From: a bacterium
Lineage (GTDB): Bacteria > BMS3Abin14
Reading direction: 5' to 3'
Assembly (NCBI GenBank): GCA_029210965.1
Contig: JARGFZ010000008.1
Span: 1 to 64,000, forward strand
Length of the DNA stretch: 64,000 nt
Position numbers and translations under genes: made by a program. A model generated the notes under the pieces. That model ran no database searches and was not told the DNA's origin. It saw only the letters and a program-made list of their open reading frames with translations. How positions within the stretch are numbered: position 1 is the first letter of the stretch; each line of letters begins with the position of its first letter. Positions 4,291 to 34,540 of this stretch are shown piece after piece.

Positions 4291-4633
4291 AGGTATTGGT
4301 AGGGCCCGTGCACCTCGTAATCGAAAAAAATGATAACGGAGCTATATTAGGAGGTTGAATTTTTCGAGGTACCTTTCGACTGGACGAAGAATTCCGGATT
4401 CCGAATTGATCATTCCGAATCAAGGTCAAAAAAATTCTCAATCAGGAATCCTAAATTATCAATCGCTCTTGTTGCCATTTAAATTTAGATTCCCTAGTAT
4501 GTCGCGGTATTCCCTAATATGTCGTGGCGTTCTCACCGTATCTTATATTTTCCATGATATAGGCCGGTGTGCTCCAGGGGCCTGCCAAAGGATCACTCCA
4601 GGCTTCCAGGCAACCCTATGGTCGGAGGTCCAG
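4276..4633. other. divergent intergenic region
   Basis: 358 bp between the divergent dehydrogenase and propeller genes. It is AT-rich, with repeated ATTCCG words around 4390-4422. Apart from the minus-strand -10 box I see no clear gene or RNA. The propeller reading frame is open upstream of 4634, but that part does not look like coding sequence. Confidence 0.4.
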
Positions 4634-6730
4634 GTGGATTTTTCAACTGCGCGCAGCACTCTTGGTTTTTTCCTGATTGCAATCATCGGGTTGCTTGTCA
4701 CACCGATTCCTGCCCATCCAGGGGAGACAGGCCTTACGCCCGTTCCGGGGGAGTATTCGAACCCTATTACCGTGACCTTCAATGTTCCTGAAGATACACA
4801 CATATATTACACCCTGGACGGCTCAGAACCCAGTGGCAACTCATCGATCTTCAAGGGCCCGGTAGCTATTGAGGATGATACGGTTATCCGTTACTTTACT
4901 GTCCATTCCAGTGGTTTGCGGAGCAGTGTCCAGGAAGCGTTCTACCGTATCAGGCTCCAGAAGCCTTTCGAGGGCGAACTGAGGACTGTGGCAGAGCCTC
5001 CTGCTGGAATGAACTCAAAACGCGTCAGAGTCACGCTGTCCACCAAGGAAGGAGCGACGATCTATTACACCATCGATGGTTCCGATCCCTCCACCGACAG
5101 TAACAGTTACAGGATGCCCATAGTCCTTACAGTGGATACACAGTTGAAGTTTTTTGCCATGGACACGGATGGGTCCAGGGAGTCGATCAGGGAGGAGTTC
5201 TACAGGTTCAAGCTTGCCGATCAAATGCTGGACACGACCCCCCCCGAGGCCAGTATTACCCCCCTGCCGGAGAATTACCGCGCCGGGGATTTTATCAGGC
5301 TGACAGCCAATGAGAAATCGGAGGTCTACTACACTCTGGACGGGACAGAGCCCACAGAGGGGTCGGTAAAATACGAGGGTCCGTTCTGGCTGACCCAGAG
5401 TTCGGAGCTCAGGTTCCTTGCTGTGGACGAGAGCGGGAATCAGAGCAGGACCTACAGTGAGACCTTTCATCTTGATAAGGATGCGCCGTCATCTGAGGCA
5501 TTTCCTGCAACCGGTCTTTACACCTCTCCCCTGACAGTGAAGATCAACGTATCAGATGCCGATGCCCGGACCCATTACACTATCAACGGTCTTCCTCCTA
5601 CCACCAACTCTCCCCAATACATGGAACCACTGGTGCTCAGGAAAGATACTGTTCTCCAGTTTTTTTCCGTGGACCCCTTCGGCAACAGTGAAGCGTTAAA
5701 AAAGGAGACATACCTCTTCGATGATGCTGCGCCTGTAACTATTGCTGATCCTCCTGGCGGTGATTATGTTCCGCCCATAAACGTCACTCTCCGCACCGAG
5801 GAATCGGCCAGAACGCATTATAGCCTGGACGGATATGACCCTGACACGGAAAGTCCCATCTATTTTTCAGGTTTTTCCTTCAGCAGACCTGCCACGCTGA
5901 AATTCTTTTCCATGGACAGTGCCGGGAATAGGGAAAATATTCAGACTCACGAATACGGGTTGGTGAGTGGAGTATGGCTAAGGTTCGCCAGAGGAGTTTA
6001 CCTGATACCCAGCATCACAGATGGCAAAACTTTCTGGATGGGATCGGAATCTGGGCTGGCAGTCTACCATGTCGGCTCAGGGGAAAGGGTTTTCATGGGG
6101 GAAGGGGAAGGGCTCCTGGGAACCAGTATCAATGATCTTGTTCTCGATGAGAAGGGAGACCTGTGGATCGCCACCGATCGGGGTCTCAATCACTTGCGCC
6201 CCGATGGAGGTTTTACACATTTTACCCGTGACGAGGGTCTGCCCGACAGGGAGGTTCTCTGCCTGGGAGTGGACAGGGATGGGAGCATATGGGCAGGAAC
6301 CAATAAGGGGGTTTCCCGCATCAAGGATGGTGTTGTCCATGAGACTCTTAGAGCAGCGGATGGCCTGCCCCACGATACCGTCCTCTCCATTGCCGTGGAC
6401 TACTCCGGTAATAAATGGTTTGGCACCATGAAGGGCTTGGCCAAATTCACAGGAAGTGAATTGCGGATCTATACCAAAGACAGCGGGATGATCAATGACG
6501 AGGTCCGAACTGTGGCCATTGATAAGGACTGGAATACCTGGGTGGGGACTCCAAGGGGTGTGTCTGTTTTCGACAGGGAAGAGTGGGTGAGCTTCACGAA
6601 AAATGACGGTCTTCCTGGAAACGCTGTCGTAATGGTTGCGCCCGACCCTGACGGAGAGGTGTGGGTTGCCACCCGAACGGGAGTAGCCCGCTATTCCAAT
6701 GGAGAGTGGATAAAAGAGAATCCTCCTTGA
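4634..6730 (+). CDS. secreted chitobiase-C-repeat and six-bladed Reg_prop propeller protein
   Basis: The reading frame is open further upstream, but GTG at 4634 is preferred: GGAGG lies 5 nt before it and the product then begins with a signal peptide or anchor (FFLIAIIGLLVTPIPAHP). The protein is about 698 residues. Five repeats of roughly 85 residues follow, each with a YYTLDGSEP-like core (variants YYTIDGSDP, HYTINGLPP, HYSLDGYDP). These match the chitobiase/beta-hexosaminidase C-terminal fold. The last 250 residues hold about six WIATDRGL/WFGTMKGL blades of the two-component-regulator-propeller type, but no kinase or transmitter domain. Binding of an extracytoplasmic ligand is likely, the ligand unknown. 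A paralogue lies at 14085-16871. The stop codon falls inside a terminator hairpin. Confidence 0.85.
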   Translation: MDFSTARSTLGFFLIAIIGLLVTPIPAHPGETGLTPVPGEYSNPITVTFNVPEDTHIYYTLDGSEPSGNSSIFKGPVAIEDDTVIRYFTVHSSGLRSSVQEAFYRIRLQKPFEGELRTVAEPPAGMNSKRVRVTLSTKEGATIYYTIDGSDPSTDSNSYRMPIVLTVDTQLKFFAMDTDGSRESIREEFYRFKLADQMLDTTPPEASITPLPENYRAGDFIRLTANEKSEVYYTLDGTEPTEGSVKYEGPFWLTQSSELRFLAVDESGNQSRTYSETFHLDKDAPSSEAFPATGLYTSPLTVKINVSDADARTHYTINGLPPTTNSPQYMEPLVLRKDTVLQFFSVDPFGNSEALKKETYLFDDAAPVTIADPPGGDYVPPINVTLRTEESARTHYSLDGYDPDTESPIYFSGFSFSRPATLKFFSMDSAGNRENIQTHEYGLVSGVWLRFARGVYLIPSITDGKTFWMGSESGLAVYHVGSGERVFMGEGEGLLGTSINDLVLDEKGDLWIATDRGLNHLRPDGGFTHFTRDEGLPDREVLCLGVDRDGSIWAGTNKGVSRIKDGVVHETLRAADGLPHDTVLSIAVDYSGNKWFGTMKGLAKFTGSELRIYTKDSGMINDEVRTVAIDKDWNTWVGTPRGVSVFDREEWVSFTKNDGLPGNAVVMVAPDPDGEVWVATRTGVARYSNGEWIKENPP

Positions 6731-8508: not shown

Positions 8509-8569
8509 AATTTTCCAGCTTCCTTGTTTTCCCTCCCCCACCCTTAATTTTTTTGTGAGGTTAGCTGAA

Positions 8570-10841: not shown

Positions 10842-11200
10842 GGTAACAGACCCTTTTTCAGCTGACTCAAATGGGGGGTTTGAAAGGATGTTATATCTGG
10901 AATAAATTGAACAACATTTTTACCCATAACGTCAAGATTTCAAGCTGTTATAGTGGAGATTTTAATGCTCAAGACATACGCAAAGAAATGATATAACATT
11001 ATCGAAGTTTTTGAAAATTTCATAGGACTCGGGATGCCGTAAAGTGTCAGGTAAAGGTGTGCTCTGGTTTTGCTGCAAGGATGATCTGGTATGTCAAGGT
11101 CGGTTTGGCAACTGTCTGGATAAGAAATCGGGGTTTGGTTGTCAACTCCCGAAAACAAGGCCCGCTGGACTAAAACAGAAGATTCAGGTGGACTGAAAAT
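10842..11200. other. divergent intergenic region
   Basis: 359 bp between the receiver gene (minus) and the start of the actin-like module (plus). It is moderately AT-rich around 10900-11000. I see no strong promoter, RNA gene or repeat. The only long reading frame here is antisense and extends into the next gene. Confidence 0.4.
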
Positions 11201-13042
11201 ATGATCAAGGATCTCAGGATCCATGGCGAAATAGGAGGCGACAAGGAGTTTTTCGCTACACTCAGCGGAGACGGCCTGGACGGCCGTTATTTCCACGAAT
11301 CCCTGGAAAGGGAGGGTGAAATCGTCCACCGTTTTTTTGTAGGTGGCAGCGAATTTCTGCTGGGTCCGGCAGCCCTGTCTCATTCCGGCAACGGAGGCAA
11401 TTTTTGTCCCTACATGTTCGGTGTGGACGAGCCTATTGAGGACCTTGTCAAACAGGAGGTGATAAACCGTCTTGTGGTCTTTGGCGCGAGGCATGAGCCG
11501 AGCTCCAGGATCGTATTCTCGGATAGAACTTCCTCCAGTGAGGAGTACAAACAGATCTTCCTCAAAGGGCACGCGGTTTTCAACTATTACTTCTTTGTTC
11601 AGTACAAAGGCAGCGGCGGACTGAAAAAACAGCAGGAAGAGATCCTCAGGTCGCTGGGCAAAGCCCTCAAGAGGTTTCCGCTCAATCTGGATGAAGAGGA
11701 TTCGCGTATTGTGGAGGGGCTCAAGTCGAGATGGTTCGAGCTCGCTTCCGTATTTTTCCTGCTCAAGGTGGTCAACCGCTCACACCTTAAATTTTACCGA
11801 AGACTCGAAGAGATGTTCGCCGCATCCCAGACCCTGGGAGACGAAGAAAATGCTCTTTTGGGGGAACTTGCTGCTCGTCTCGCCATCGACCCCTATTCTC
11901 AGGAAAGAATGAAGATCGATGTTATGTACAGATATCCGGGCAACCGTCAGGTTGTGGAGGAGTACCGCTCCATACTGGTTGATATCAGGAGCAGGGACGA
12001 GATCCGGTTTGACGACCAGGCGCGCATTTCACGATTGCGGACAGTAGCTCTTCGAAAGGGAATCCCGGTAAACCTGCTCAACTCTTTAGATGAAAAGCTG
12101 CTGGGCGACCGGAAAATGATCGTCGCCGAGGAACCGGCTTATCTGGTCGAGATGAGGGGGGTCCTGGAAACCATCCTCCTGCAGAGCAGGCAGGTGAGCA
12201 TCCTTCTTGAGAAAGAGGACCTGATAAAATTGCTCAAGTCAAAGCTCATCGCTTTGGAAAATAGGGATTCGGCCTTCGACCGGATCCTCATTGAAGTGGG
12301 AAAAGAGTGTGACGAGCGTAGCCGGGAAGCAGGGAATACTGTGGCCCTCGAAGAGTTCGGGAATATCGTCACCTTCTTCGACAGGTTTGACAATGTATAT
12401 CACGTTGTCAATAGTCTGGGTTTCCACGAGGAAGAAAGGCTTCCGGAGGACAAACTCCGGAGCCTGATGATGAGCAAGAAGGTGTTCGATGATGTTCAGG
12501 AGAACCTTTTCCACGACCTTTTCATCGTCCAGATCCTGAAGAACCATTATCTTCCGCAGTACGGTAAAAAGAAGGTGGAGGCGCTGTTTGGCGGTATGTC
12601 CCATATCGAGACAGGTGATTTTTCCCTTCAGGACGTGCTGATATCCCTGGAAGATCTGGTCAGGGAAGAGCGGGAATACCGCATTGTAAAGACAGCCATG
12701 GATCGCTGGCTTAAAAAGTTTGGTCGTTCCCTCAAAGGGATCGAAGAGGAAACGTCATTTATTAACGATGTCAGGAAGATGCTGGTTTCCCGCTCGCTGG
12801 TACGTCCGGACGTGCCGGAATCGTTTTTCCGAAAGGCTCTCGAGGACCTGAAAATGGAGAGGATCTTTTTCGGTTCCGTGCTTCCCAACGCTATCAAGGC
12901 CAGGGATGCTGTCATCAGAAGCGAGTTCATCGACACAAGCGGTATGGATATGATGAGGATCGAAGAACTGGAAAGAGAGTTTCAGCAACAGTACCTTATC
13001 ACGGACGAGGTCATGGATATTATCCGGAGTGATGGAGCCTGA
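11201..13042 (+). CDS. large mostly helical protein of unknown function, actin-like module
   Basis: 613 residues, without signal peptide or clear membrane segments. The first 130 residues look mixed alpha/beta (MIKDLRIHGEIGGDKEFF); the rest is rich in charged helices. I do not recognise a catalytic motif. From memory, and unverified, it may belong to a deltaproteobacterial family of unknown function (possibly TIGR04442). It ends 11 nt before the actin-like ATPase gene with no terminator, so the two are co-transcribed. A cytoplasmic partner or regulator of the filament protein is a reasonable guess only. Confidence 0.75.
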   Translation: MIKDLRIHGEIGGDKEFFATLSGDGLDGRYFHESLEREGEIVHRFFVGGSEFLLGPAALSHSGNGGNFCPYMFGVDEPIEDLVKQEVINRLVVFGARHEPSSRIVFSDRTSSSEEYKQIFLKGHAVFNYYFFVQYKGSGGLKKQQEEILRSLGKALKRFPLNLDEEDSRIVEGLKSRWFELASVFFLLKVVNRSHLKFYRRLEEMFAASQTLGDEENALLGELAARLAIDPYSQERMKIDVMYRYPGNRQVVEEYRSILVDIRSRDEIRFDDQARISRLRTVALRKGIPVNLLNSLDEKLLGDRKMIVAEEPAYLVEMRGVLETILLQSRQVSILLEKEDLIKLLKSKLIALENRDSAFDRILIEVGKECDERSREAGNTVALEEFGNIVTFFDRFDNVYHVVNSLGFHEEERLPEDKLRSLMMSKKVFDDVQENLFHDLFIVQILKNHYLPQYGKKKVEALFGGMSHIETGDFSLQDVLISLEDLVREEREYRIVKTAMDRWLKKFGRSLKGIEEETSFINDVRKMLVSRSLVRPDVPESFFRKALEDLKMERIFFGSVLPNAIKARDAVIRSEFIDTSGMDMMRIEELEREFQQQYLITDEVMDIIRSDGA

Positions 13043-13053
13043 GGAGGACACAT

Positions 13054-14085
13054 ATGTTAATGGCAGGTGTTGATGTTGGGTTCGGATTTACCAAGGCTAC
13101 AGACGGTGAATCCTATACCCTGTTCAAATCTATCGTCGGCGAACCTCAACCGCGGTCAATGGAGGACAATTTTTTCTCCAGTGAAGCGATACCGGGGCTG
13201 CATTTGACATTGGATGACCGCTCCTACTTTGTTGGAGAACTGGCCGAATCGGAGTCAAGGGTACGGCAATTTACCCTGGACCAGGCTCAAATGGTTACCC
13301 AGCAATTCAAGATCCTTGCCCTCGCCGCACTTGCCAAGATAGTGCCCAGCCGGGTACCAGTCAACGTGATCACCGGGTTACCGGTGGGATATTACATGGA
13401 GTACAAGGACAAGCTGGCCCAGGTTCTGGAGGGTGAGCACAAGCTCCTGATCCATGACAGCTCCCAGGGGAATGAAACCGAAACCGTTCTTAACATCAGC
13501 CATGCCAGGGTGATACCCCAGCCCTACGGGAGCCTCGTAGATTATCTGTTTCGGGATGACGGGACTGTACTCAGAGCGGATGCTGCGCGGCAGAAGATAG
13601 GGGTGGTCGATATTGGTTTCAAAACAACTGATTTTACCGTTTGCAAGGATTTCAGGCATTCCGAGCGCGGCAGCAGGACCACCGATACAGGCATTGCCAA
13701 AGCGTTCACTTACATCTCCGAGGCGCTCAACGACATGAGCGGTGTCAATGTGGAGATCTACCGTCTGTACGATGCAGTCCGTGAGGGCAGTATCAAGATC
13801 AGGGGCGCTGAATATGATCTTTCCAAGGTTAAAGGCGAAGTTTTCGGCAGGTTGGCGACGGCTGTGGCCAGCGATATGGAGAGGGTCTGGACCGATGATT
13901 GGGATCTGGATCTTGTTCTCCTGGCCGGTGGGGGCGGAGAGGCACTCTTCGAATACCTGAAACCCCTGGTACGTGGCGAACTGGCACTACTCAAGACAAA
14001 GGATGATCCACGGATGTCGAACGTTTCGGGGTATGTAAAATACGGTCGTTACTATTATGATGGAAGCGTGGTGAAGGAGGCCTGA
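13054..14085 (+). CDS. chromosomal actin-like ATPase (ParM/StbA/Ta0583-like)
   Basis: 343 residues with the actin-fold signatures: phosphate-1 GVDVGFGFTK (5-14), phosphate-2 VVDIGFKTTDF (184-194) and adenosine motif LLAGGGGE (289-296). The length fits ParM/AlfA-type filament-forming ATPases rather than MreB (a separate mreB lies at 32129) or FtsA. GGAGG lies 6 nt before ATG 13054. No parR-like gene or centromere repeats are nearby, so plasmid segregation is unlikely. The gene is flanked by the unknown 613-residue gene and, through a one-base TGATG overlap, by a membrane-anchored propeller protein, which suggests a cytoskeletal role linked to the envelope. Confidence 0.85.
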   Translation: MLMAGVDVGFGFTKATDGESYTLFKSIVGEPQPRSMEDNFFSSEAIPGLHLTLDDRSYFVGELAESESRVRQFTLDQAQMVTQQFKILALAALAKIVPSRVPVNVITGLPVGYYMEYKDKLAQVLEGEHKLLIHDSSQGNETETVLNISHARVIPQPYGSLVDYLFRDDGTVLRADAARQKIGVVDIGFKTTDFTVCKDFRHSERGSRTTDTGIAKAFTYISEALNDMSGVNVEIYRLYDAVREGSIKIRGAEYDLSKVKGEVFGRLATAVASDMERVWTDDWDLDLVLLAGGGGEALFEYLKPLVRGELALLKTKDDPRMSNVSGYVKYGRYYYDGSVVKEA

Positions 14086-16871
14086 TGAGAGGCAAGAGTT
14101 TCCTTTTTCTGGCGATACTTCTGGCGCTGGTAGCGGTCCTGGCACAGTTCTGGCCTTTTGACCGCACCCCGCCAGAGGTCCAGATTCAGCCTGCACCGGG
14201 TAAATACCACGAGAAGATCCAGGTCACGCTCACCACGGAACCGGACGCTGAACTGTTCATCGCCACTGGTGACGGGCAGCCCATGCCCTATTTTGTCCCC
14301 CTTCAGCTCAAGAAGGATACGGTTATCCGATACTTCGCGAAGGATCGATACGGCAACCTGTCTACCGAGAGTATTGCCAGATATGAGGTTCGTCTTGATA
14401 CGGTTCCCCCTGTAAGCACTGCCTCCCCCAGGGGCGGAAAATATTTCCACCCTGTTTCCGTCAGGATAAATACTGAAGATGGAGGAGTGGTCCATTACAC
14501 CACGGACGGGTCAAAACCCACCCGCCAATCCCAGACTTACCTGAACCCCGTAGCCATGAGGAAGGATACCACTATCAGGTTCTTCGCGGTGGACGAGGCG
14601 GGGAATGCAGAAGATGTGCACAAAGAGGTCTACACCGTAAGGGTTGACAGCACCAAACCGGTCACTCTGGCTGAACCGTCCGGCGGTCTATTCAGGCAGC
14701 CGGTTTTGGTTAACCTTTCAGCAGAAAAAAATACCACAGTTTACTACACTGTTGACGGCAGTCGGCCCACGACGAAGTCCCCCCGGTACTCCACCCCCAT
14801 CAAGTTCGTCAGAAGCGGAGTCCTGAGGTTTTTCGCTGTGGACGAAGTGGGCAACAAGGAGAGCGTCAGAGAGGAAAGCTATGTTGTTGATTCACAGCCG
14901 CCAACTGTGAAAGCGGATCCCGCGGCAGCTGCCTTTGCCGGTCCTGTTAAAGTTGTTCTCATATCCAGTGAACAGGGGACTATTCGATACGAACTCGATG
15001 GCGGTGAGGCAAGTCTGTCATCGCCTGTGTATAAAGGCCCTCTGAATATTTCCAGGACAACAACCCTGTCCTTCCTCGCTGAGGATAAAGCTGGCAATAA
15101 AAGCCCTGTCATAAAGAATGAATATATCATTGATACAGTACCTCCACAGGCCGTTCCCAGGCCGCCGGGGGGTAAATATTCCGGCAGGATCCGTGTAAAG
15201 ATCGAATCATCGGAACCCGCCGACATTTTTTACACAGTAGACGGTTCGACCCCATCAGGGGACTCTTCCCCATACAAAGGTCCCATCACCATAAACAACA
15301 ACACGACTTTGTCCTATTTTGCTGTGGACAAGGTTGGCAACAGAAGCGCTGGACAAAGTCAGCGATACATCCTCGACAGCAGCCCTCCAAAAACCAGGGC
15401 CGAGCCGCCAGGGGGAACCTTCTCGGGCGAGATTACTGTGAGCCTTCTAGGTGAGGAAGACTCCGTGGTGCGCTATACACTGGACGGGATCTCCCCCACC
15501 GAGGCTTCACCTGTTTACAAAACCCCTGTCCGCCTGGTCAAGGACGCCCAGCTTAAATTTTACGGCACCGATATATCAGGGAACAGGGAAGAGGTTCAGG
15601 TCGAAAAATACACCTTTGATACAACCCCCCCCTCCACCAGGGTCGAGCCTTCGCCCGGATATTACAGCAAGCCGATCAGTGTGACCCTCTCCTCGGAAAT
15701 GAGCGGTCAGATATTTGTGCGCAGGGCCGAACAAAAGGGTTTTGTCGTGTATACAGGGCCCTTCGTCATTGAGAAGACGGAAAAACTTTCCTTCTACGCC
15801 ATGGATGATGCAGGGAACAAAGAGGCCTCCCAGGTGGCCGAATATATAATAGACACTGATGCGCCCCAGACGGTGCCGTATCCGGCCCCCGGTCAGTACA
15901 ACCCTCCCATTACTCTTGAACTGAAATCAGAGCAAAACGCCCGGATCCATTACACCCTCGATGGTTCTCAACCATCGGAAATGTCTCCGGTTTACAATGC
16001 GCCCCTGTCCCTGAATGACAACATCACCGTAAAATATTTCGCGGTGGACAAGGCAGGGAACCGGGAGCGGACAAAAACCGCTGCATATACTGTATCGAGT
16101 GGTATCTGGCGCGATAACTCCAACGGTGTGTTTATCCATCCCAGTGTGATCGAAGGTGATTTCCTTTGGGTCGGTGGTGAGGAAGGGCTTTTCAGGGTCA
16201 ATATAGAAACCAAGAAGAAGAAAAATTATACAACCTCCAACGGGCTCATAAGCAACTCGGTGCGCGCCATAGCTGTTGACAGGCTGGGTTTCAAATGGAT
16301 AGGCACCGACAAGGGTATATCCCAGTTCGATGGAGATCGAAACTGGGTAACCTACGATTACAGTGACGGCCTGCCGAGCAACTTCATCAACTGTGTTGTC
16401 ATAGATCCTCTGGACAACATCTGGTTCGGTACCGATAAGGGACTGGCGATATTTGACCGCAAGAAGTTTACGGTCAGGACCACAGAACAGGGCCTGCCCG
16501 ACAACAACGTGACATCCCTGGCCATTGATGCCAACGGTGTGTTCTGGATCGGGACCTCGAAGGGGCTCCTGAGACAGGACGGAAAAAAACAGCGGGTGTT
16601 CACGACATCCCAGGGGCTGCCTTCAGATCGGATCCTTTCGGTAGCGGTAGACGGCAGATGGAATGTCTGGGCCGGTACTGAAGGTAAGGGAGTAGCCAGG
16701 TACGACGGCGGGAAATGGTTGCAATATACTGATTCACAGGGAATGCCCCGGATCTCGATCAGGGTGATCGTGGTTGACCTTGCTGACAGCAAATGGTTTG
16801 GGACTGACGCAGGTGTTTATAAATATGATGGAAGGCTGTTCACTCGGTCGGAGACGGAAATATATAGATAA
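14085..16871 (+). CDS. membrane-anchored chitobiase-C-repeat (x8) and propeller protein
   Basis: 928 residues. One N-terminal hydrophobic segment (FLFLAILLALVAVLAQF) serves as a signal anchor. About eight repeats of roughly 85 residues follow, most with a YYTVDGSRPT-like core; the first (IATGDGQP) and the seventh (around FVRRAEQKG) are degenerate. Most repeats begin with a TPP or DT-PP linker. About six propeller blades (WIGTDKGI, WFGTDKGL, WIGTSKGL, WAGTEGKG, WFGTDAGV) end the protein. It is a longer paralogue of the product of 4634-6730. Its start codon overlaps the stop of the actin-like gene, so it is tied to that system. The likely place is the periplasm or cell surface; the ligand is unknown. 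Confidence 0.85.
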   Translation: MRGKSFLFLAILLALVAVLAQFWPFDRTPPEVQIQPAPGKYHEKIQVTLTTEPDAELFIATGDGQPMPYFVPLQLKKDTVIRYFAKDRYGNLSTESIARYEVRLDTVPPVSTASPRGGKYFHPVSVRINTEDGGVVHYTTDGSKPTRQSQTYLNPVAMRKDTTIRFFAVDEAGNAEDVHKEVYTVRVDSTKPVTLAEPSGGLFRQPVLVNLSAEKNTTVYYTVDGSRPTTKSPRYSTPIKFVRSGVLRFFAVDEVGNKESVREESYVVDSQPPTVKADPAAAAFAGPVKVVLISSEQGTIRYELDGGEASLSSPVYKGPLNISRTTTLSFLAEDKAGNKSPVIKNEYIIDTVPPQAVPRPPGGKYSGRIRVKIESSEPADIFYTVDGSTPSGDSSPYKGPITINNNTTLSYFAVDKVGNRSAGQSQRYILDSSPPKTRAEPPGGTFSGEITVSLLGEEDSVVRYTLDGISPTEASPVYKTPVRLVKDAQLKFYGTDISGNREEVQVEKYTFDTTPPSTRVEPSPGYYSKPISVTLSSEMSGQIFVRRAEQKGFVVYTGPFVIEKTEKLSFYAMDDAGNKEASQVAEYIIDTDAPQTVPYPAPGQYNPPITLELKSEQNARIHYTLDGSQPSEMSPVYNAPLSLNDNITVKYFAVDKAGNRERTKTAAYTVSSGIWRDNSNGVFIHPSVIEGDFLWVGGEEGLFRVNIETKKKKNYTTSNGLISNSVRAIAVDRLGFKWIGTDKGISQFDGDRNWVTYDYSDGLPSNFINCVVIDPLDNIWFGTDKGLAIFDRKKFTVRTTEQGLPDNNVTSLAIDANGVFWIGTSKGLLRQDGKKQRVFTTSQGLPSDRILSVAVDGRWNVWAGTEGKGVARYDGGKWLQYTDSQGMPRISIRVIVVDLADSKWFGTDAGVYKYDGRLFTRSETEIYR

Positions 16872-16874
16872 GAG

Positions 16875-16945
16875 GCCGTGACTAGTGACTGGTAATGAGT
16901 GATTAGTAAATTCTTTTTCCAATCACAAATAACCAGTCACCAATT
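16875..16945. repeat. short-word palindrome
   Basis: GTGACTAGTGACTGGTAATG-type words on the left face AATCACAAATAACCAGTCAC words on the right around 16915. This is an imperfect long hairpin between the propeller and zinc-ribbon/FHA genes that could weaken read-through. Confidence 0.5.
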
Positions 16946-16958
16946 ACGGAGGTAACTT

Positions 16959-17525
16959 ATGAAATTAGCTTGCTCCAACTGCCAGACGAATTATCAGATT
17001 GCGGATGAAAAGATCCCGGTCAAGGGTGCGCGGGCCAACTGCCAAAACTGCGGCCAGCTCATTCTTATCCCCGGGAGGGGCAGTGAAGGCAGGTCCAGCA
17101 GCTTTCTTCCCGGAGCAACAGATGTGGATTTCGGACAGACAATGGCATACGATTTTTCCGAAGTGGACCAGAGCCGGACAGAGATCTCCGCATTCCTTGA
17201 GAAAATTTCCGAACGTGAACCGTTCATGGAGGAAGGGCTGGTCCTTTCCCTGAGGGATATTCAGACCGGGGAGGAGTATGCCCTGCCCGGGGCAGAGGTG
17301 ACCGTTGGCCGACGCGGGGCCAGTATAAACGTGGATGATCCGGAGGTTTCCAGGAGTCACTGCCTCATCAAGGTGTTTGGCGACCGTATTGTCATTCTGG
17401 ATCTCGAGAGCACCAACGGTACATACGTCCATGGCAAGAAAGTAATGACTGCCAGCCTGGGAGTCTCTGAACAGTTCAGCATAGGTAACACAATAGTTGA
17501 ACTGGTGAAAAAACAGGTGGATTGA
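16959..17525 (+). CDS. MJ0042-type zinc ribbon and FHA domain protein
   Basis: 188 residues. The N-terminus (MKLACSNCQTNYQIADEKIP, then ANCQNCGQLILIPG) is an MJ0042-type zinc finger with two CxxC pairs. The C-terminal 90 residues form an FHA domain with VGRRGASINVDDPEVSRSHC and the signature ESTNGTYVHGKK. FHA domains bind phosphothreonine, implying a Ser/Thr kinase elsewhere; none is in this window. The protein is cytoplasmic, with no membrane segment. An 18-nt gap to the next gene points to co-transcription with the HD-GYP protein. Confidence 0.88.
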   Translation: MKLACSNCQTNYQIADEKIPVKGARANCQNCGQLILIPGRGSEGRSSSFLPGATDVDFGQTMAYDFSEVDQSRTEISAFLEKISEREPFMEEGLVLSLRDIQTGEEYALPGAEVTVGRRGASINVDDPEVSRSHCLIKVFGDRIVILDLESTNGTYVHGKKVMTASLGVSEQFSIGNTIVELVKKQVD

Positions 17526-17543
17526 GGTGACGGGGCCTACCTC

Positions 17544-18944
17544 ATGAAGACAGACGCAAAGACTGACAGAAACCTCCTGGACAGAAGTGGAATCCTTCCT
17601 CCGGGATTCTCCCATGAGGTTGCCTCTTTTGGTCGCAGCTCTGGACCTTTCACTTTTTCTCTTCGCTGGAAGGTTTCTATCTCCTTCTCCGTCCTTTTAT
17701 TCATGGTCGTCGGTCTCCTGTTCTTTGCCTTTATGCGGTACGAACGGATATTCCTCCAAAAGGAAGGGGAGAAAAGAGCTTACTCACTTGCTCTAAACCT
17801 TGCCGTAAATGCGCGGGATCCTCTTCTGGCGCAGGACGATCTCAGACTTGGTCCCGTTACAGAATCCATTAGCCAGGACAGTGATGTTTTATACGCCTTC
17901 CTCATGGATCATCAGTCCCGTGTTCTCTATCACTCAGATCCCGTTAAAACGGGGAAGCTGCTGCCTCAGGGTGTTCCCATGTCTGAAAAAGGGGTTATCC
18001 AGGCATCGGTACCTGTAGTGGTGGAGGGTGTCCAGGTTGGTACCGCAGTGGTTGGCCTGAGTGAGAATCATATCAGAAAAGCGGTTGAGGCCACAGCAAT
18101 CGGCCTGATCTTTCCCTTGAGCGTAGGGACGGGGTTAGGCCTGCTCGGCATTTTTTTCCTGACGGGGGTGCATATCAACAGAGTGGAGCTACTTGAAAAG
18201 GCAGTGCAGGCCCTGGGATCGGGCAACCTCCAGGTGAGGGTGGACGATCGGAGCATGGATGAGGTTGGCCGATTATCAAGGGGATTTAACGAAATGGTTA
18301 GCCAGCTTCATATGGCCAGAAAGCTGGTAGAGAAAAACTTTAAAGAAACTATCAGCGCTCTGGCTGAAGCGGTTGAGGCTAAGGACGCATACACACGTGG
18401 TCATTGCGATCGAGTTGCCAGGATCTCTATGGCCATAGCGAAACGGGCTGGTTTGGAAACCGCGCGCTGCATGGAACTGGAGCTTGCAGCTATCCTGCAC
18501 GACATTGGAAAAATCGGTGTTGAAGAAGGTGTGGTTGGAAAGCTTGGGGCGCTTAACCAGGACGAAACGAGGGACATGAGAAATCACCCCGAGATCGGAG
18601 CAAGGATCCTCAGCCCCCTGTCCTCCCTCAAGAGAGTCGGTTCTTATGTTAAGCATCACCATGAACATTACGACGGGACAGGGTACCCGGACCGGCTTAA
18701 GCGTGAAAAAATACCTCTCCCATCACGGATAATCCTGCTTGCAGATGCATTTGATGCCATGACAACGGACCGGCCCTACAGGGACGCTCTGACAAGAAAA
18801 GAGGCCTTTCAGAGAATAAACCTGGGCCGTGGCAGACAGTTCGATCCCCGGATCGTAGATATCTTCTTTGCACTGGCCGATGAGGGGTATGTTGATGCGG
18901 TCTATGGGGATGTTCCAGAGGAGGCCCAATCATCAAACGCTTGA
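17544..18944 (+). CDS. membrane HAMP/HD-GYP c-di-GMP phosphodiesterase
   Basis: 466 residues. Two membrane segments (about 50-72 and 188-212) flank an extracytoplasmic sensor region of about 110 residues. A HAMP linker follows (RVDDRSMDEVGRLSRGFNEM), then an HD-GYP domain. The metal-binding and catalytic residues are intact: ILHDIGKIG near residue 317 and HHEHYDGTGYP near 372-382. It should hydrolyse c-di-GMP in response to a periplasmic signal. Its 3' end overlaps the next reading frame, so it is coupled to the TPR lipoprotein gene. Confidence 0.9.
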   Translation: MKTDAKTDRNLLDRSGILPPGFSHEVASFGRSSGPFTFSLRWKVSISFSVLLFMVVGLLFFAFMRYERIFLQKEGEKRAYSLALNLAVNARDPLLAQDDLRLGPVTESISQDSDVLYAFLMDHQSRVLYHSDPVKTGKLLPQGVPMSEKGVIQASVPVVVEGVQVGTAVVGLSENHIRKAVEATAIGLIFPLSVGTGLGLLGIFFLTGVHINRVELLEKAVQALGSGNLQVRVDDRSMDEVGRLSRGFNEMVSQLHMARKLVEKNFKETISALAEAVEAKDAYTRGHCDRVARISMAIAKRAGLETARCMELELAAILHDIGKIGVEEGVVGKLGALNQDETRDMRNHPEIGARILSPLSSLKRVGSYVKHHHEHYDGTGYPDRLKREKIPLPSRIILLADAFDAMTTDRPYRDALTRKEAFQRINLGRGRQFDPRIVDIFFALADEGYVDAVYGDVPEEAQSSNA

Positions 18945-19957
18945 CAGTTGCCCTTCTCGCGATGCTGTGGATCAGCTCAGCAGGTTGCGCTCTGGTGGAA
19001 AAGGGAGCAGGGCGAAGGTCGGAATGTTCCCGGATCGTTGGTCTTGCCCGCTCCGGTGACCATAAACCGGCTGTGGATGCTGCCCTGGCGTTGGAAGAAT
19101 CAGGGAAGAGCTGCTCTCCTGATGTCGTGGAGGCGGTATCCCGATCCCGATCAAAACTCCAGAAAGCCGATTTTTACGTTCACAAAGCCCTGAAGATGAG
19201 AAAAGAAGGGGACCTTTTATCCGCTCGCGCTGATCTTAAGAGGGCACTTTCGATCTATCCGAGGTACTACTGGGTTCAGACCCTGATAAAGAACGTTGAC
19301 AGGTCCATACAGGCGGAGCTCGACAGCCTGTGGAATGAGGCAAGCTATTTGAAATCAAGAGGGGATCCGGAAGGGGCCCTGTCAAGAATCCAGGAAGCCC
19401 TGACCCTTTCTCCCGGGGATCAGAAGCTAAAGTCAGAAGCGGCCGCATTACCGGAGATGATTAAAAAGGCCCAGGCAGACTTGAACGTTAATAATGTTCT
19501 GGATGAAGCGAGGACCTATCTTGAAGAGGGCCGGTTCGATGAAGCCCAGGAGCTTCTGACAAAAGGTGATTTGCCAGGGCGACTGGGCACCAGAGGAGAG
19601 GATCTGCTCTCTGAGGTTATCAGTGGTCGTAACGAGGTAATTAAACAGAAATTCGACGATGCCCTGGATAAGGAAAAAGAAGGGGATCTGGATGCTGCGG
19701 CCGGGCACACTCTCGATGTCCTTGGACTGTCGGTGTTAGGAGAACAGTTTACGGCTGATATTGTGATATTTGCAAGACTCCTGGGGATGAAGTTTTATTC
19801 CGCGGGGGAGCTTTCCAGGGCTAAAGAACTCTGGGCCAAAGCTCTCATTGTCGATCCGGGGAACCTCAAGCTCCAAGGCTATCTCAAGGAAGTTGAGACC
19901 CGCCTGGATAACCTGGATCGTATTAAAAAAGGAGGGGCCGAAAACGTTGGTAAATGA
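18941..19957 (+). CDS. TPR-repeat lipoprotein
   Basis: About 338 residues. The N-terminus (LLAMLWISSAGC) is a lipoprotein signal with the lipobox Cys, and TPR-like helical pairs follow (for example GDLLSARADLKRALSIYPRYYW, GDPEGALSRIQEALTLSPGD, GELSRAKELWAKALIVDPGN, each cited only in part of the whole). The listed start is the only canonical one (TTG at 18941), but it lacks the basic residues of a signal peptide. Reading on upstream gives IIKR directly before it, and GGAGG at 18920-18924 is spaced for an ATC at 18929 or 18932, so the true start may be non-canonical. The TPR surface probably binds a partner at the membrane. Confidence 0.8.
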   Translation: MTVALLAMLWISSAGCALVEKGAGRRSECSRIVGLARSGDHKPAVDAALALEESGKSCSPDVVEAVSRSRSKLQKADFYVHKALKMRKEGDLLSARADLKRALSIYPRYYWVQTLIKNVDRSIQAELDSLWNEASYLKSRGDPEGALSRIQEALTLSPGDQKLKSEAAALPEMIKKAQADLNVNNVLDEARTYLEEGRFDEAQELLTKGDLPGRLGTRGEDLLSEVISGRNEVIKQKFDDALDKEKEGDLDAAAGHTLDVLGLSVLGEQFTADIVIFARLLGMKFYSAGELSRAKELWAKALIVDPGNLKLQGYLKEVETRLDNLDRIKKGGAENVGK

Positions 19958-20228
19958 GCTTGAAAAGTTTATCTGCTCGGCTCGCGATGTCCTTTATTCC
20001 TACGGGAGAGACTATGCCCTCGGGGCGGTTCGTGGTCTGGCGGTACGGAACATGATCTCCGTTGTTCTTCCGGATCCAGTAGAGGGTTTCTATCCCATCG
20101 TCAAGGTTCACGAGATGGCTCTGAGGGATCTGGAAGAGGTGTTTTACAATTATATCCAATCGGTGGAAGGGTCAGATAGCAGAGAGGAACTTATCCTGGA
20201 ACTGATTGACCAGAAGGTGTGGGAGTGA
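19947..20228 (+). CDS. small conserved-looking protein of unknown function
   Basis: 93 residues from TTG at 19947 (VNELEKFICSARDVLYSY follows), with GGAGGGG ending about 9 nt upstream. The frame is open further upstream, but there it overlaps the TPR gene and does not look coding. It is acidic, mostly helical, without signal or membrane segments; the C-terminal part (ELILELIDQKVWE) may form a helix. I do not recognise a family. It overlaps the end of the TPR gene by 11 nt and lies 13 nt before the endopeptidase gene. Confidence 0.65.
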   Translation: MVNELEKFICSARDVLYSYGRDYALGAVRGLAVRNMISVVLPDPVEGFYPIVKVHEMALRDLEEVFYNYIQSVEGSDSREELILELIDQKVWE

Positions 20229-20241
20229 GGGAACATTCCGA

Positions 20242-21576
20242 ATGATCAACAACCCGTCGCCAAAGCGCAACATCTATCTACTGGGAAGGGGTCGGCTCAA
20301 GGTCCGGTACCTTCTGCTGATCCTCATGGGGTTTGTTGTTCTGTGCGTCAGCAGGCCGTATAACCCTCCAAAGGAAGGGCCTGGAGAGCCTGCGGTACTG
20401 GAGGTTCCGGTAGAGTCCGGCATCCTGATACAGGAAGCAGTTCTTTTACCTCCGCCGGTCACTGTGGAGGAAATTTCAGTTCGACGTGGAGATACCCTTT
20501 ACGACATTCTCAAGGCAAAAGGGTTGTCGGATAACCGAATAATCGCCATTTCCGATGAGAAAGTCGATGGTATCAACCCCTCCCGGTTGGTTGTGGGGAG
20601 GAGCTACCGGTTGTATGTCCAGGATGGCCAGGTCACAGAATACCAGTATGAACCGGACGACGAGAGGATCCTGCGGATTGCTTTTGATGTTGATCCCCCA
20701 GTACTAAGTGTGGAACCAATCCCCTATGAGGTTTTCACCGCCCCCATTTCGGGTGATATCAGGGACTCTCTTTTTGAAGCGGTGGAAGCGATAAATGAAA
20801 AACCGTCCCTTGCCATGGATCTGGCTGATCTTTTCGCCTGGCAGGTGGATTTTTTCAGGGATCTGAGGACCGGAGATTCCTTTACGGTCCTGGTTGATAA
20901 GTATTACCGTGACGGGAAGTTTGTCCGATACGGGAAAATTCTGGTTGCCCGCTTTGTAAACAACGGAAGCACGCATACCGCTTTTCTCTTCACACCGGAA
21001 GGCGGGAGAGAGGATTATTTCGATGAAACCGGCGGGAGTCTCAGAAAACAGTTTCTCAAGTCCCCACTCAGGTTCCGACGTATCAGCTCGGGGTTTTCCA
21101 AAAAAAGGCTTCACCCGGTGACGGGAAAAGTGATGGCTCACTTCGGGATCGATTACGCAGCTCCCACGGGTACTCCTATCGTGTCCATCGGTGACGGGAA
21201 GGTTCTGTTTAAAAAACATGATGCCGTCAACGGGAGGATCATAAAGATCAGACACAATGGCACCTATTCCTCAGCCTACGCCCACATGAACAGCTTTGCC
21301 AAGGGGATCGACAAGGGCAGCCGGATCCGCCAGGGACAGGTCATCGGGTATGTGGGGAGGTCGGGGAGAGCCACCGGACCCCATCTCCATTTCGCTATGT
21401 ACAGGAACGGCAATTACGTTGACCCGCGGCGTATCAATGTACCCAGAGCAACCAGTATTCCTGACCGGGACCGTACTGCATTCGATGAAAAGATCAAGGA
21501 GATCGCACCTCTGCTGGGTGGTGACCCTGGGGAACAGGTTGCAACGAATGAGGTTCCAACCCATGCCCAACGTTAA
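20242..21576 (+). CDS. M23-family metallopeptidase with LysM-like N-terminal domain
   Basis: 444 residues from ATG at 20242. One N-terminal membrane segment (about 23-38) is followed by a LysM/OapA-like region (VRRGDTLYDILKAKGLSDN) and a C-terminal LytM domain with HFGIDYAAPTGTPI (His300, Asp304) and HLHF (His381, His383), the zinc ligands of M23 endopeptidases. The layout matches MepM/YebA-type enzymes that cut peptidoglycan cross-links. All zinc ligands are present, so it should be active, unlike EnvC-type activators. Its place in the actin-like module suggests a link between filament, envelope sensor and cell-wall cutting. Confidence 0.92.
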   Translation: MINNPSPKRNIYLLGRGRLKVRYLLLILMGFVVLCVSRPYNPPKEGPGEPAVLEVPVESGILIQEAVLLPPPVTVEEISVRRGDTLYDILKAKGLSDNRIIAISDEKVDGINPSRLVVGRSYRLYVQDGQVTEYQYEPDDERILRIAFDVDPPVLSVEPIPYEVFTAPISGDIRDSLFEAVEAINEKPSLAMDLADLFAWQVDFFRDLRTGDSFTVLVDKYYRDGKFVRYGKILVARFVNNGSTHTAFLFTPEGGREDYFDETGGSLRKQFLKSPLRFRRISSGFSKKRLHPVTGKVMAHFGIDYAAPTGTPIVSIGDGKVLFKKHDAVNGRIIKIRHNGTYSSAYAHMNSFAKGIDKGSRIRQGQVIGYVGRSGRATGPHLHFAMYRNGNYVDPRRINVPRATSIPDRDRTAFDEKIKEIAPLLGGDPGEQVATNEVPTHAQR

Positions 21577-24361
21577 ACAGATCCTGGCTTTCGACAAGGA
21601 GAATCTGCTTGATATCCTCCACTATCTCGCCAAAGAGATAGCCGAGGTTACCGATCGGCCAGAGGTCAGGCTCTACATCGAGGACATGCGGGGCGGGGCC
21701 CTTAACTGTCTTTACACTCCTGAAGGAGAGTTGGAGAGGAAAGGAGCCCGGATCCCGATCCAGAGGCGGGATAACACCCTGGTCAAGTCCTATCTCGAGT
21801 CCAAAATACTGGATGGTATCGTCCTTGGGGCCGGCACCGATGACCTTCATAGGGAATGGTATGCCAGGAAAAAACTGGTCAGTTCGGCTATCTTCCCTCT
21901 TCTTGACGCCGGTCGTTCCGTAGGTGTCCTGAGCGTGGATTCATCCCGCGATTTCGGGGAGGTTCTCACCAATCGTCAACGGGAAGAGATTCGCCTGTTT
22001 TTAGGCATCATCATGCCCACCCTGGCCAGGGCCCACCGTTTTAACCAGAAGATGATGCTCAACAGACACCTGGACCGCCTGAGAAAAAGAGACGCGGCCA
22101 GGGTCCTGCTGCAGGGGGGGTTCGAAATGGATCTCTCTTTGGATATCTCTTCAGTTCTGGTCTCGGCTGTATCACCAATCCCGGAAGTGCTCAGGAGTGA
22201 GCACGGGGGTTATATGGAGGTGCTGGCGGCAGCATCTAAAAGTTCCTCAGATCTGCAGATCTACGAGACCCTTGAAAGGATCAGCATCGAGGAGGGCAAG
22301 AGTCTGCTGTCGAGGCTTGTCATGCAGGATGGGGACCGGATAATAAGGCGAGAGGGGACTGCATCAGTTCTGTTTTTAAAGGACATCCTCACTGAGGAGT
22401 TCGAACGATGGGAAGTATTCAATAAACTGGCCCTTAAAACCCTCCTCATGATCCCCGTGGAAGATGAGAATGGGGAAGTAATCTGCGTAGTGAACTATTT
22501 TACCAAGCGTCCCCACCGGTATTCGGAATCTGAAATCAAGCTCCTGACTGGTCACGCTCGTACCTTGAGTGAAGGTATAAGCGATGTGGTTGTGGAGCAT
22601 TTCGAAATAAGGGTTCTTTCTGAGATAGAGCAGCTTCTTGCGGAAGATACCGAACTTCCCGTGTTCCTTGGAAAGGTTGTGTCCCGAGCGGTTGAACTTG
22701 CGGGAGCCGATTCCGGATCCCTTGCCCTTGTAAGGGAACGGGATCACCAACGGTGGCTGGTCGTCGAGGACGAGGATGGCCAGATTGTGGGCGCCAGATC
22801 CCATGTCTGGAGGAAAGGCAGGATCCCCCTTCTCAGGGTTGGCGGTGAAGAGCTGCCGCCGGAACATCGGTCACTCACCGGTTACGTAGCGTTCACTGGT
22901 AAGCCCTACATGTGTGCAGACACGGAGGCGGAGATCGCCCGGGGAGGGTTTTACAGGGACCTGGCCCCGGATATCCGGTCGGAGCTGGCCGTTCCCATCA
23001 TGACAGGGGATAACGTTATCGGTGTCATCAACCTCGATAGCCACAAGAAAAACTACTTTGGAACGGAGCACCAGGGCATTCTTCAGCTCATTTCCCGCCT
23101 CATATCAAGCCGTATAGGCGATTACCTTAAAATAGCTGAATTAAGGGACAAAGTGGAAAGGCTGCACAAGGAAGTTTCCTATAAAGATCCGGGTATCAGT
23201 TCCTACCTCCTGGGCAACATTATTGGAAAAAGTCCTTCATCCCTCAGGCTTGTGGAGCGGATCAGTCGTTTGACCGTGCCCCTGACCAACCGGCTGGTAA
23301 ACTGGAAACGAGGTGGTGAAAAAGAGTTGGACCTGGGTCTGCCCACCCTTCTCATCACCGGGGAAACTGGAGTGGGAAAAGAGTTTGTCTTTAACAACCT
23401 GTACAGCCTTATCAACCAGAAGTACCGGGAGGACGGAAGAGTTTCAGGTGAGCTTTCTCTCCGAAAGACAAACATTGCGGCCTTTACCGGAGAACTTACC
23501 TACACCGAGTTGTTCGGCCACCGGAGAGGGTCCTACACGGGGGCCCATGCTGACAGGGTGGGCATACTCGAAGAGGCGGATGGTGGTGTCGTATTTCTGG
23601 ATGAGATAGGGGATGCTGACCTTAAGACCCAGGTCCAGCTTCTTCGCTTTCTGGATTCGGGCGATTTTTCCAGGTTGGGGGAGAGCCGTATGCGCCGGAG
23701 CCGGGTCATTTTTGTAGCAGCAACCAACAAGGATCTGGCAAAGGAGATCTCCCGCGGAGCGTTCAGGGAGGACCTTTATCACCGTCTCAGCGAAATGACG
23801 CTCCGGGTACCACCACTTCGTGAAAGAAGAGAGGATATCCCGGATCTTGCCAAACACTTCCTCGGTCGGCTTCACGTTACCTACGGTCTGGCAGGAAAGG
23901 TTCCCGTTCTCACGGGGGAGGCAGAGGCATACCTCAAGGAACTGGGATATCCCGGCAATATAAGGCAGTTGATAACTGTTCTCCAGGGAGCCCTTTTCGA
24001 AAGCTCCGGAAGTATAATAGGCCGGGAGGAGATAGGTCGTTTTCTGGCTCTTGGACGGGAGGAAGAAAAAGAAGATACAGAGGGGTTTGCGGGAATTTAT
24101 GGTCGTATCCGCCAGGGAGAGGGAGACTTCTGGGACCTGGTGCACGGTCCCTTCATGGAACGGGATCTGACCCGCCAGACAGTGCTTGAAATTTACAGGA
24201 TGGCCCATGATGATGGTAATGGTGTTAGGGGCGCTGCCAGACTGCTGCGTGCGCTGCCGGAGGGTGGGGTGGGGGAGGAAGCTGCCCTGACTCGATTCAG
24301 AAATTTCATGTATAAAACTGTCGGCCTGGGTAAAAAAGAAGAGGGGGGCGGCGTGCGATAA
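21563..24361 (+). CDS. GAF-domain sigma54-interacting AAA+ regulator
   Basis: About 932 residues from ATG at 21563 (GAGG 9 nt upstream; ATG at 21548 is an alternative). The N-terminal 600 residues contain two or three GAF-like sensor domains, the clearest near 410-560 (SELAVPIMTGDNVIGVINLD). The AAA+ domain has Walker A GETGVGKE, the sigma54-contact loop as GSYTGA in place of GAFTGA, Walker B VVFLDEIGDA and the FREDLYHRL arginine-finger segment. A possible Fis-like HTH is at the C-terminus (NGVRGAARLL). It overlaps the endopeptidase gene by 14 nt, so it may control this module or be signalled by it. Confidence 0.85.
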   Translation: MPNVKQILAFDKENLLDILHYLAKEIAEVTDRPEVRLYIEDMRGGALNCLYTPEGELERKGARIPIQRRDNTLVKSYLESKILDGIVLGAGTDDLHREWYARKKLVSSAIFPLLDAGRSVGVLSVDSSRDFGEVLTNRQREEIRLFLGIIMPTLARAHRFNQKMMLNRHLDRLRKRDAARVLLQGGFEMDLSLDISSVLVSAVSPIPEVLRSEHGGYMEVLAAASKSSSDLQIYETLERISIEEGKSLLSRLVMQDGDRIIRREGTASVLFLKDILTEEFERWEVFNKLALKTLLMIPVEDENGEVICVVNYFTKRPHRYSESEIKLLTGHARTLSEGISDVVVEHFEIRVLSEIEQLLAEDTELPVFLGKVVSRAVELAGADSGSLALVRERDHQRWLVVEDEDGQIVGARSHVWRKGRIPLLRVGGEELPPEHRSLTGYVAFTGKPYMCADTEAEIARGGFYRDLAPDIRSELAVPIMTGDNVIGVINLDSHKKNYFGTEHQGILQLISRLISSRIGDYLKIAELRDKVERLHKEVSYKDPGISSYLLGNIIGKSPSSLRLVERISRLTVPLTNRLVNWKRGGEKELDLGLPTLLITGETGVGKEFVFNNLYSLINQKYREDGRVSGELSLRKTNIAAFTGELTYTELFGHRRGSYTGAHADRVGILEEADGGVVFLDEIGDADLKTQVQLLRFLDSGDFSRLGESRMRRSRVIFVAATNKDLAKEISRGAFREDLYHRLSEMTLRVPPLRERREDIPDLAKHFLGRLHVTYGLAGKVPVLTGEAEAYLKELGYPGNIRQLITVLQGALFESSGSIIGREEIGRFLALGREEEKEDTEGFAGIYGRIRQGEGDFWDLVHGPFMERDLTRQTVLEIYRMAHDDGNGVRGAARLLRALPEGGVGEEAALTRFRNFMYKTVGLGKKEEGGGVR

Positions 24362-31700: not shown

Positions 31701-33166
<1,466 letters not shown>

Positions 33167-33170
33167 TTCC

Positions 33171-34025
33171 GTGTCATCGTCAGGCAGCCCCATGCGCGAT
33201 TTTCTCATGCGCCACAGGGAAGGGCTGCTATTGGTGATTCTTGTTCTTTCATCCCTTCTCATCATTTCCAGGCAGGTCCAGGACCCCACCGGCATAAACT
33301 ATTTCCGGAGGAGTGTCATTACCGTCACATCGCCGTTTCAGAACGGATTAACTGCTGTCATCGGCGGAGTGAGGAGCATTTGGGGCGACTATCTTTTTTT
33401 CTTCGGTACCAGGGCGGAAAATACCCAGCTCAGGGAGGAAGCCAGCCAGCTGAGAAGCGAAGTCCAGAAGTTACGGGAAGAACTGTACAGGGCAGGGCGT
33501 CTTGAAGAGTTTTCTGCATATCGGTTTGAAACCGGCTTTACCGGAATGGCTGCCCAGGTGATCGGTGAATCTCCTGATTCATGGACACGCACTATTGTTG
33601 TCAATCGAGGAATGGAAGAGGGTGTGAAACGAAGCCTTCCGGTTGTAACGCCGGACGGCCTCGTGGGAAGTGTTGTCCAAACCTCTGATCACAGTTCCAT
33701 AGTTCGCCTGATCGTGGACCGTTCCTCAAGGGTTCCTGTTCTTGTAAGCCGCTCACGGGCAAGGGCTATTCTGGAGGGGGAGAGCTCCGGAACCTGTCAA
33801 CTGAAATACCTGGACCGGACCGAGGATGTACAGCAGGGTGACATTGTCATAACCAGCGGGCTTGCCGGTATTTATCCCCGGGGTATAGAGGTCGGTACGA
33901 TCACTCAGGTTCTGACCAGAAGTCATGGACTATATCAATATGCCAAAGTTCTGCCGAAAGCGGCCATAAACCGTATTGAGGATGTCCTCATCATCCGGAC
34001 TGAACAGGGTCTGGAGGAAAAATGA
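33171..34025 (+). CDS. mreC: rod shape-determining protein MreC
   Basis: 284 residues from GTG at 33171. One membrane segment (LLLVILVLSSLLII) is followed by a coiled coil (ENTQLREEASQLRSEVQKL) and the beta-rich MreC domain (INRGMEEGVKRSLPVVTPDG-like region, cited here as GVKRSLPVVTPDGLVG). It links MreB to the periplasmic synthases. It lies 4 nt after mreB and its end overlaps mreD by 4 nt. Confidence 0.95.
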   Translation: MSSSGSPMRDFLMRHREGLLLVILVLSSLLIISRQVQDPTGINYFRRSVITVTSPFQNGLTAVIGGVRSIWGDYLFFFGTRAENTQLREEASQLRSEVQKLREELYRAGRLEEFSAYRFETGFTGMAAQVIGESPDSWTRTIVVNRGMEEGVKRSLPVVTPDGLVGSVVQTSDHSSIVRLIVDRSSRVPVLVSRSRARAILEGESSGTCQLKYLDRTEDVQQGDIVITSGLAGIYPRGIEVGTITQVLTRSHGLYQYAKVLPKAAINRIEDVLIIRTEQGLEEK

Positions 34026-34537
34026 GGTATTTATATTTTCTGTTCCTTTTCGGAGCCGCTCTAATTCTTCAGTCATCTGCCGTTTCTGTTGTTCTGCCCG
34101 ACTGGTTCGTCGGCGGTTTTGATCTTCCTCTGATCATCGTCCTTCATATTGCCATGACCCGCGGAAAAATTCCGGGGATGATGACAGGTCTTGTGATGGG
34201 ATTTCTCCAGGACTCCATGAGCGGGGGTGTGCTCGGTTTCAACGGGGTTTCCAAGATCATAGCCGGTTATATGGGAGGCTTCCTCAAGGAAAAGTTCTTT
34301 GTGCGCAGTATGGGTCACAGGACTGCATCGGTGGCCGGGGCTGTTTTTGTAGCCCTTCTGTCAAAAGTCACCGTTCTTGCCCTTTTTGCGCAATCCCGCC
34401 CATCCCTGTTATCGGTACAGTTTTTATGGGGTTTTGCCGGCAATACCCTTTTTGCCCTGCTGATCCATTCTCTACTGGATCGTTTCGAAAAAGCTTTCGG
34501 GGTCAGGGCGGAAGAGGAACTGAGTCTGGGGGACTGA
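34022..34537 (+). CDS. mreD: rod shape-determining protein MreD
   Basis: 171 residues, very hydrophobic with about five membrane segments (for example FLFGAALILQSSAVSVVL and GFAGNTLFALLIHSLL). Typical MreD features are the DLPLIIVLHIAMTRG loop and GFLQDSMSGGVLGFNG. It is the third gene of the operon and 3 nt before mrdA. Confidence 0.93.
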   Translation: MRYLYFLFLFGAALILQSSAVSVVLPDWFVGGFDLPLIIVLHIAMTRGKIPGMMTGLVMGFLQDSMSGGVLGFNGVSKIIAGYMGGFLKEKFFVRSMGHRTASVAGAVFVALLSKVTVLALFAQSRPSLLSVQFLWGFAGNTLFALLIHSLLDRFEKAFGVRAEEELSLGD

Positions 34538-34540
34538 GAA

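Follow-up and report, generated by a model that had tools for sequence, protein, structure and literature searches.

The window analysed here, a stretch of 64,000 nucleotides (positions 1 to 64,000 of contig JARGFZ010000008.1, assembly GCA_029210965.1), carries at positions 11201-24361 an operon of nine closely packed genes, all on the forward strand. A check of the open reading frames recovered every gene of the preliminary description, as described and in the order given. These genes, together with two further loci of the window, are:

4355..6730, +, second CHB/propeller protein, paralogue of that at 14085-16871, found directly 5' of TIGR04442 in several relatives
11201..13042, +, TIGR04442 protein, 613 aa (NCBIfam TIGR04442, 549 bits, cut-off 150)
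13054..14085, +, ParM/Ta0583-type actin-like ATPase (ALP), 343 aa (PF17989, PF21522, structure model)
14085..16871, +, N-terminally anchored envelope protein with CHB_HEX/Fn3-assoc repeats and a Reg_prop propeller, 928 aa (Pfam)
16959..17525, +, MJ0042 zinc-ribbon and FHA domain protein (Pfam, NCBIfam)
17544..18944, +, membrane sCache_3-HAMP-HD-GYP protein, probable c-di-GMP phosphodiesterase (Pfam, motifs)
18941..19957, +, TPR lipoprotein (Pfam TPR; signal followed by SAGC)
19947..20228, +, soluble 93-aa protein (conserved in sister loci)
20242..21576, +, M23 DD-endopeptidase of ShyA/ShyC/MepM type, membrane-anchored (PF01551 2e-30; ShyC 232 bits, cut-off 700)
21548..24361, +, GAF-AAA sigma54 activator of the 'GPMC system transcriptional regulator' family (NF038230, below cut-off)
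32129..37488, +, mreB-mreC-mreD-mrdA(PBP2)-rodA rod-shape cluster (NCBIfam MreB, MreC, PBP2 and RodA; mreD from position and conservation)

The gene for the 613-aa protein is followed after 11 nt by that for ALP, and the open reading frame of the propeller protein starts on a nucleotide shared with the ALP stop codon, in agreement with the spacing and overlap given for these genes. The reported tight packing downstream is also found, with an 87-nt gap before the FHA gene, 18 nt before the HD-GYP gene and a 4-nt overlap between the HD-GYP and TPR genes. Homology-based starts lie at about 19947 for the 93-aa gene and at 21548, not 21296, for the regulator, with 20242 being the better start for the M23 gene. 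Further upstream, polyamine-type genes (7604-10272) stand between the second CHB/propeller gene and TIGR04442.

The propeller protein, in which Pfam recognises eight CHB_HEX repeats and a Reg_prop propeller, has a single transmembrane segment at residues 1-27, with about four residues on the cytoplasmic side. Direct contact with a filament is unlikely for a protein of this topology, so the proposal that a filament reads an outside sensor through it is unlikely as drawn. The HD-GYP protein has intact catalytic motifs (HDIGK and HHEHYDGTGYP), and the zinc-ligand motifs HFGID and HLH are intact in the M23 endopeptidase, which the preliminary description had called catalytic. The 93-aa protein is restricted to the lineage of the window as far as searched; a search of 395 genomes from the Geobacter phylum found no match, an outcome that shows little, as there was no positive control. 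An anti-phage defence function of the operon was considered and rejected, the PADLOC matches being confined to generic HD, AAA and CHB-repeat domains.

ALP matches PF17989 (ALP_N, 9e-37) and PF21522 (MreB-like_C, 1e-15), and its closest relatives among the sequences of solved structures are pCBH ParM (3e-29), Dh-cParM1 (1e-18) and CorM (8e-10). The phosphate and adenosine motifs DxGFGFxK, PQPxGS, DxGFxTxD and GGG are invariant in 25 ALP homologues; R1 ParM carries Glu where the PQPxGS motif of this family has Gln. The AlphaFold model (pLDDT 86, pTM 0.85) places the fold nearest to filament-forming ParMs, with structural matches to Dh-cParM1 (TM 0.83/0.77), Ta0583 (0.78/0.84) and CorM (0.78/0.79) and a lower match to MreB (about 0.5-0.6). 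Families, intact nucleotide motifs and fold model therefore agree on a ParM/Ta0583-like protein, as originally named, and the model and motifs support a probable ATPase of the polymer-forming class. ALP does not match PF06723 (MreB_Mbl), the real MreB of the window being encoded at 32129-33166, and does not pass the FcmB family model NF052678 (57 bits, cut-off 300).

Membership in the ALP_N/ParM families, a PHROG match annotated as 'partition protein' (4e-58) and the existence of chromosomal ParMR systems (PMC12270681) would agree with a plasmid or prophage partition system that was captured by the chromosome (cParMRC) and still segregates DNA. The surroundings of the gene make this very unlikely. 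ALP is flanked by an 11-nt gap and a 1-nt overlap, which leave no room for a gene of ParR size, and none was found; a parC-type direct-repeat array is absent from positions 10842-11400 and 16800-17000, so that the reported lack of both ParR and a centromere array stands. The setting is chromosomal, the 98-kb contig also carrying housekeeping genes (spe, mre, rodA), and the plasmid and phage relatives that were found do not exceed 31% identity: there is a single plasmid match, at 25% identity, the phage matches among the matches listed reach at most 28%, and viral contigs reach 31%. In a tree of 29 ALPs, 23 chromosomal ParR-less proteins are separated from the phage, plasmid and ParR-linked ones with an ultrafast bootstrap support of 100. 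No small downstream gene common to the ALP orthologue loci was found, and ParR-like neighbours were seen only in a distant group of 28% identity (L081/L082, 2 of the 395 genomes), where a conserved gene of 84-90 aa, ParR-like by eye, lies directly downstream. Plasmid partition, already doubted in the preliminary description, is thus unlikely for a protein with no ParR, no repeats and no close plasmid or phage relative.

Conservation was followed in 12 genomes of the phylum of the window, all of one family and representing eight genera. TIGR04442 is present in 11 of these, and the order TIGR04442, ALP, propeller, FHA, HD-GYP, TPR, small protein, M23 and regulator recurs as far as the contigs extend, with protein identities of about 60-80% in sister genera for the main genes and of 49-80% for the first three operon genes outside the nearest relatives. 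Judged from the sequences compared, this conservation of gene order across sister genera is far beyond chance. The stretch from TIGR04442 to the propeller gene is readable in nine genomes, and ALP lies between the two in seven of them (six genera), always in exactly this slot and, in the closest relatives, with the same 11-nt gap and 1-nt overlap. In having a fixed place in an envelope operon within its lineage, ALP is envelope-linked as had been proposed. A split TIGR04442/ALP in G004 and a missing TIGR04442 in G006 fall at scaffold gaps (runs of N) and were discounted as not biological. The M23 gene of G001 has no regulator after it, and in G003 (L016) the FHA-HD-GYP pair is tandem-duplicated inside the operon.

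Two genomes, G002 and G009, have lost ALP and kept the operon. In G002, which is 100% complete, about 30 codons that include the ALP start, MLMAGV...GEAQPRTLDDEFFDG (translated by eye), are all that survives of the gene in the 114 nt separating TIGR04442 from the propeller gene (L020/L053), indicating that ALP was deleted secondarily from an operon that is otherwise intact; in G009, 44 nt are left at this place, with no recognisable ALP scrap. Whole-genome searches found no ALP elsewhere in either genome. As these are metagenome-type assemblies, misassembly could in principle account for any one deletion. The loss of ALP from both, with the operon retained, indicates that it is an accessory part and not the core of the operon.

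The rod-shape cluster mreB-mreC-mreD-mrdA-rodA, which was absent from the preliminary description, lies 7.8 kb 3' of the operon in the window, and about 5-9 kb past the operon end in G000, G004, G008, G001 and G002 (four genera); in G003 it is about 160 kb from the operon. This conserved nearness strengthens the envelope link of the ALP operon, while part of the linkage may be neutral synteny, given that the housekeeping genes RlmD and PpiD stand between the operon and mre. As the genome also holds MreB, ALP would be an addition to it and no substitute.

Outside the lineage the picture differs: the gene order holds within it, but the three genes put forward as a core are not neighbours elsewhere, which by the preliminary description's own standard speaks in part against its proposal. 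Among the 395 genomes, surveyed as the phylum of a Geobacter genome, strong ALP orthologues (40-49% identity) occur in 16 and TIGR04442 in 15, and the two occur together in five, against about 0.6 expected if they were independent (relatedness uncorrected); as each is also found alone, the two proteins may interact, yet neither requires the other. The Desulfuromonadia ALP orthologues are solitary or in varied contexts, and four loci of Desulfuromonadales (L062, L086, L088 and L089) repeat the order ALP-RNase R-RibF-AroE-PilB-PilT, with PilT named by position and sequence start. The PilB of L062 carries a c-di-GMP-binding N-domain. Such solitary orthologues, the order repeated in four loci and the ability of the gene to drop from the operon while the rest stays speak for an orphan ancestral chromosomal ALP of Desulfobacterota-type bacteria, having an independent job, such as the positioning of a large complex or of type IV pilus machinery, and being merely co-transcribed with the envelope operon here. 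This reading is possible, if rather on the improbable side, and has to contend with the exact slot that ALP holds in seven genomes of six genera within the lineage.

The 613-aa protein had been described as being of unknown function; it does belong to a known family, TIGR04442, although that family itself carries no function. It is predicted to be cytosolic, with an N-terminal beta domain (1-135) and a mostly helical remainder, and its structure model (pLDDT 86, pTM 0.53) has no significant fold match in the PDB. A PP2C/SpoIIE-like fold of the N-domain was rejected (top Foldseek match E 0.04 with rmsd 10.6; SpoIIE profile comparison probability 0.2%; conserved residues unlike PP2C metal ligands), as was a viral origin of the protein, which has no match in PHROGs or BFVD. 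The Desulfuromonadia homologues, at 28-39% identity to that of the window, usually follow a gene for an MBL hydrolase (the two tested score above the cut-off of NF038231) and precede the GPMC regulator in Geobacterales and an EF-G-like gene, named from its sequence start, in other Desulfuromonadales; no ALP or recognised wall gene was found near these loci. The EF-G-like arrangement is seen in L031, L106, L107, L108 and L112, usually with the MBL hydrolase upstream.

The regulator at 21548-24361 matches NF038230 over its full length at 941 bits (cut-off 1200). It reads GSYTGA where the sigma54 motif GAFTGA would stand, RtcR/NorR-type activators come closest to its AAA part, and Pfam recognises no helix-turn-helix in it. 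TIGR04442 and, probably, the regulator are common to the operon and to the GPMC module of Geobacter/Pelobacter (NF038230, NF038231). In Geobacterales the two are adjacent, whereas in the window seven ALP/envelope genes lie between them, and the MBL hydrolase of the module is missing from the lineage of the window, no above-cut-off match to NF038231 being found in its 12 genomes. The operon could on this basis be a GPMC-type stress module whose core is TIGR04442 and the sigma54 activator and in which ALP, without polymerising, serves TIGR04442 as an ATP switch; in favour of this are the position of the two core genes, flanking here and adjoining in Geobacterales, and the RtcR-like AAA part. It is nevertheless improbable, considering the absent MBL partner, the occurrence of ALP without TIGR04442 and of TIGR04442 without ALP, and an ALP fold nearest to filament-forming ParMs.

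The reading preferred here, held tentatively and at a little less than an even chance, is that an envelope-remodelling operon next to the elongation machinery has recruited ALP, a chromosomal actin-like protein that has no ParR and is accessory to the operon. ALP may thus be a second, dispensable actin for cell-envelope work and not for DNA movement. A role in the envelope is argued for by the conservation across genera of the operon, which combines envelope sensors (the propeller and sCache/HD-GYP proteins) with an endopeptidase of elongation type and a sigma54 activator, by the fully supported ParR-less chromosomal clade, in which ALP has neither ParR nor repeats and a fold near Dh-cParM1, Ta0583 and CorM, and by two precedents: FcmB, a chromosomal ParM-derived actin on which rod shape depends (PMC12645912), and the chromosomal ParMs that polymerise (PMC12270681). 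Counting against it are the loss of ALP in G002 and G009, the presence of Desulfuromonadia ALP outside such an operon, where TIGR04442 has the MBL hydrolase for a neighbour, together with EF-G or with the regulator, and a search upstream of the operon for a sigma54 -24/-12 site, which found none.

In this accessory role, ALP would polymerise on ATP in the cytoplasm, where a cytosolic partner would tether or regulate it; TIGR04442 is the best-placed candidate, in the stead of ParR. The filament would bias the site or timing of wall opening by the M23 enzyme, in parallel to MreB. Coupling to the remaining genes is more plausibly through co-expression, c-di-GMP (HD-GYP) and the GAF/sigma54 regulator, such that the propeller protein, the HD-GYP protein and the regulator would adjust expression or the amount of c-di-GMP with no contact to the filament. 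A stronger version, in which the whole lineage has a second, MreB-independent envelope actin cytoskeleton with TIGR04442 as its adaptor in place of ParR and with sensors, a c-di-GMP enzyme, a wall endopeptidase and a sigma54 regulator dedicated to it, is unlikely.

The operon had been called undescribed. There are earlier records of TIGR04442, of the GPMC regulator and of ParM-type actins that are chromosomal or serve the envelope (cParM, FcmB, CorM), but the term still suits the ALP clade and the operon, on neither of which a paper was found; literature searches on 'GPMC system' and on TIGR04442 also found none. Plasmid-type actins had been regarded as movers of DNA, and the cyanobacterial FcmB and CorM show that their repurposing for the cell envelope is possible. 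The locus is a candidate for such repurposing in a lineage other than cyanobacteria and, if this is true, would be a further independent ParM-type actin turned to envelope work. It puts forward TIGR04442 as a specific candidate for the adaptor and provides, for comparison, a natural loss of ALP, and the wider ParR-less ALP family reaches Geobacter-type bacteria, among them some that can be cultured and manipulated genetically.

At best, ALP would be functionally like FcmB and CorM, and it is not a member of their systems. The FcmB-FcmC system of filamentous cyanobacteria likewise involves a chromosomal ParM-derived actin besides MreB, there for cell shape (PMC12645912), but FcmB has a downstream ParR-annotated FcmC, whereas the ALP of the window has no FcmC beside it and is part of an envelope operon, in which the next gene encodes the CHB/propeller protein. 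The CorM filament of Anabaena (PDB 9rmi) has the same fold as ALP, at 21% identity in structural alignment, but was solved with its partner CorR present, and no CorR-like gene is found at the ALP of the window. Dh-cParM1, among the best structural matches, and Cb-cParM (PMC12270681) are also chromosomal ParM-type actins, but the cParMs studied, from Desulfitobacterium and Clostridium, come with cParR and in a different neighbourhood. Ta0583 of Thermoplasma (PDB 2fsj) is alike in fold, but is archaeal and 18% identical. Bbp of giant bacteria (PMC10580974) is a further extra actin besides MreB and shares an operon with a Kelch-domain gene, but falls between MamK and MreB, outside the ParM/Ta0583 group, and is by this description set apart from ALP.
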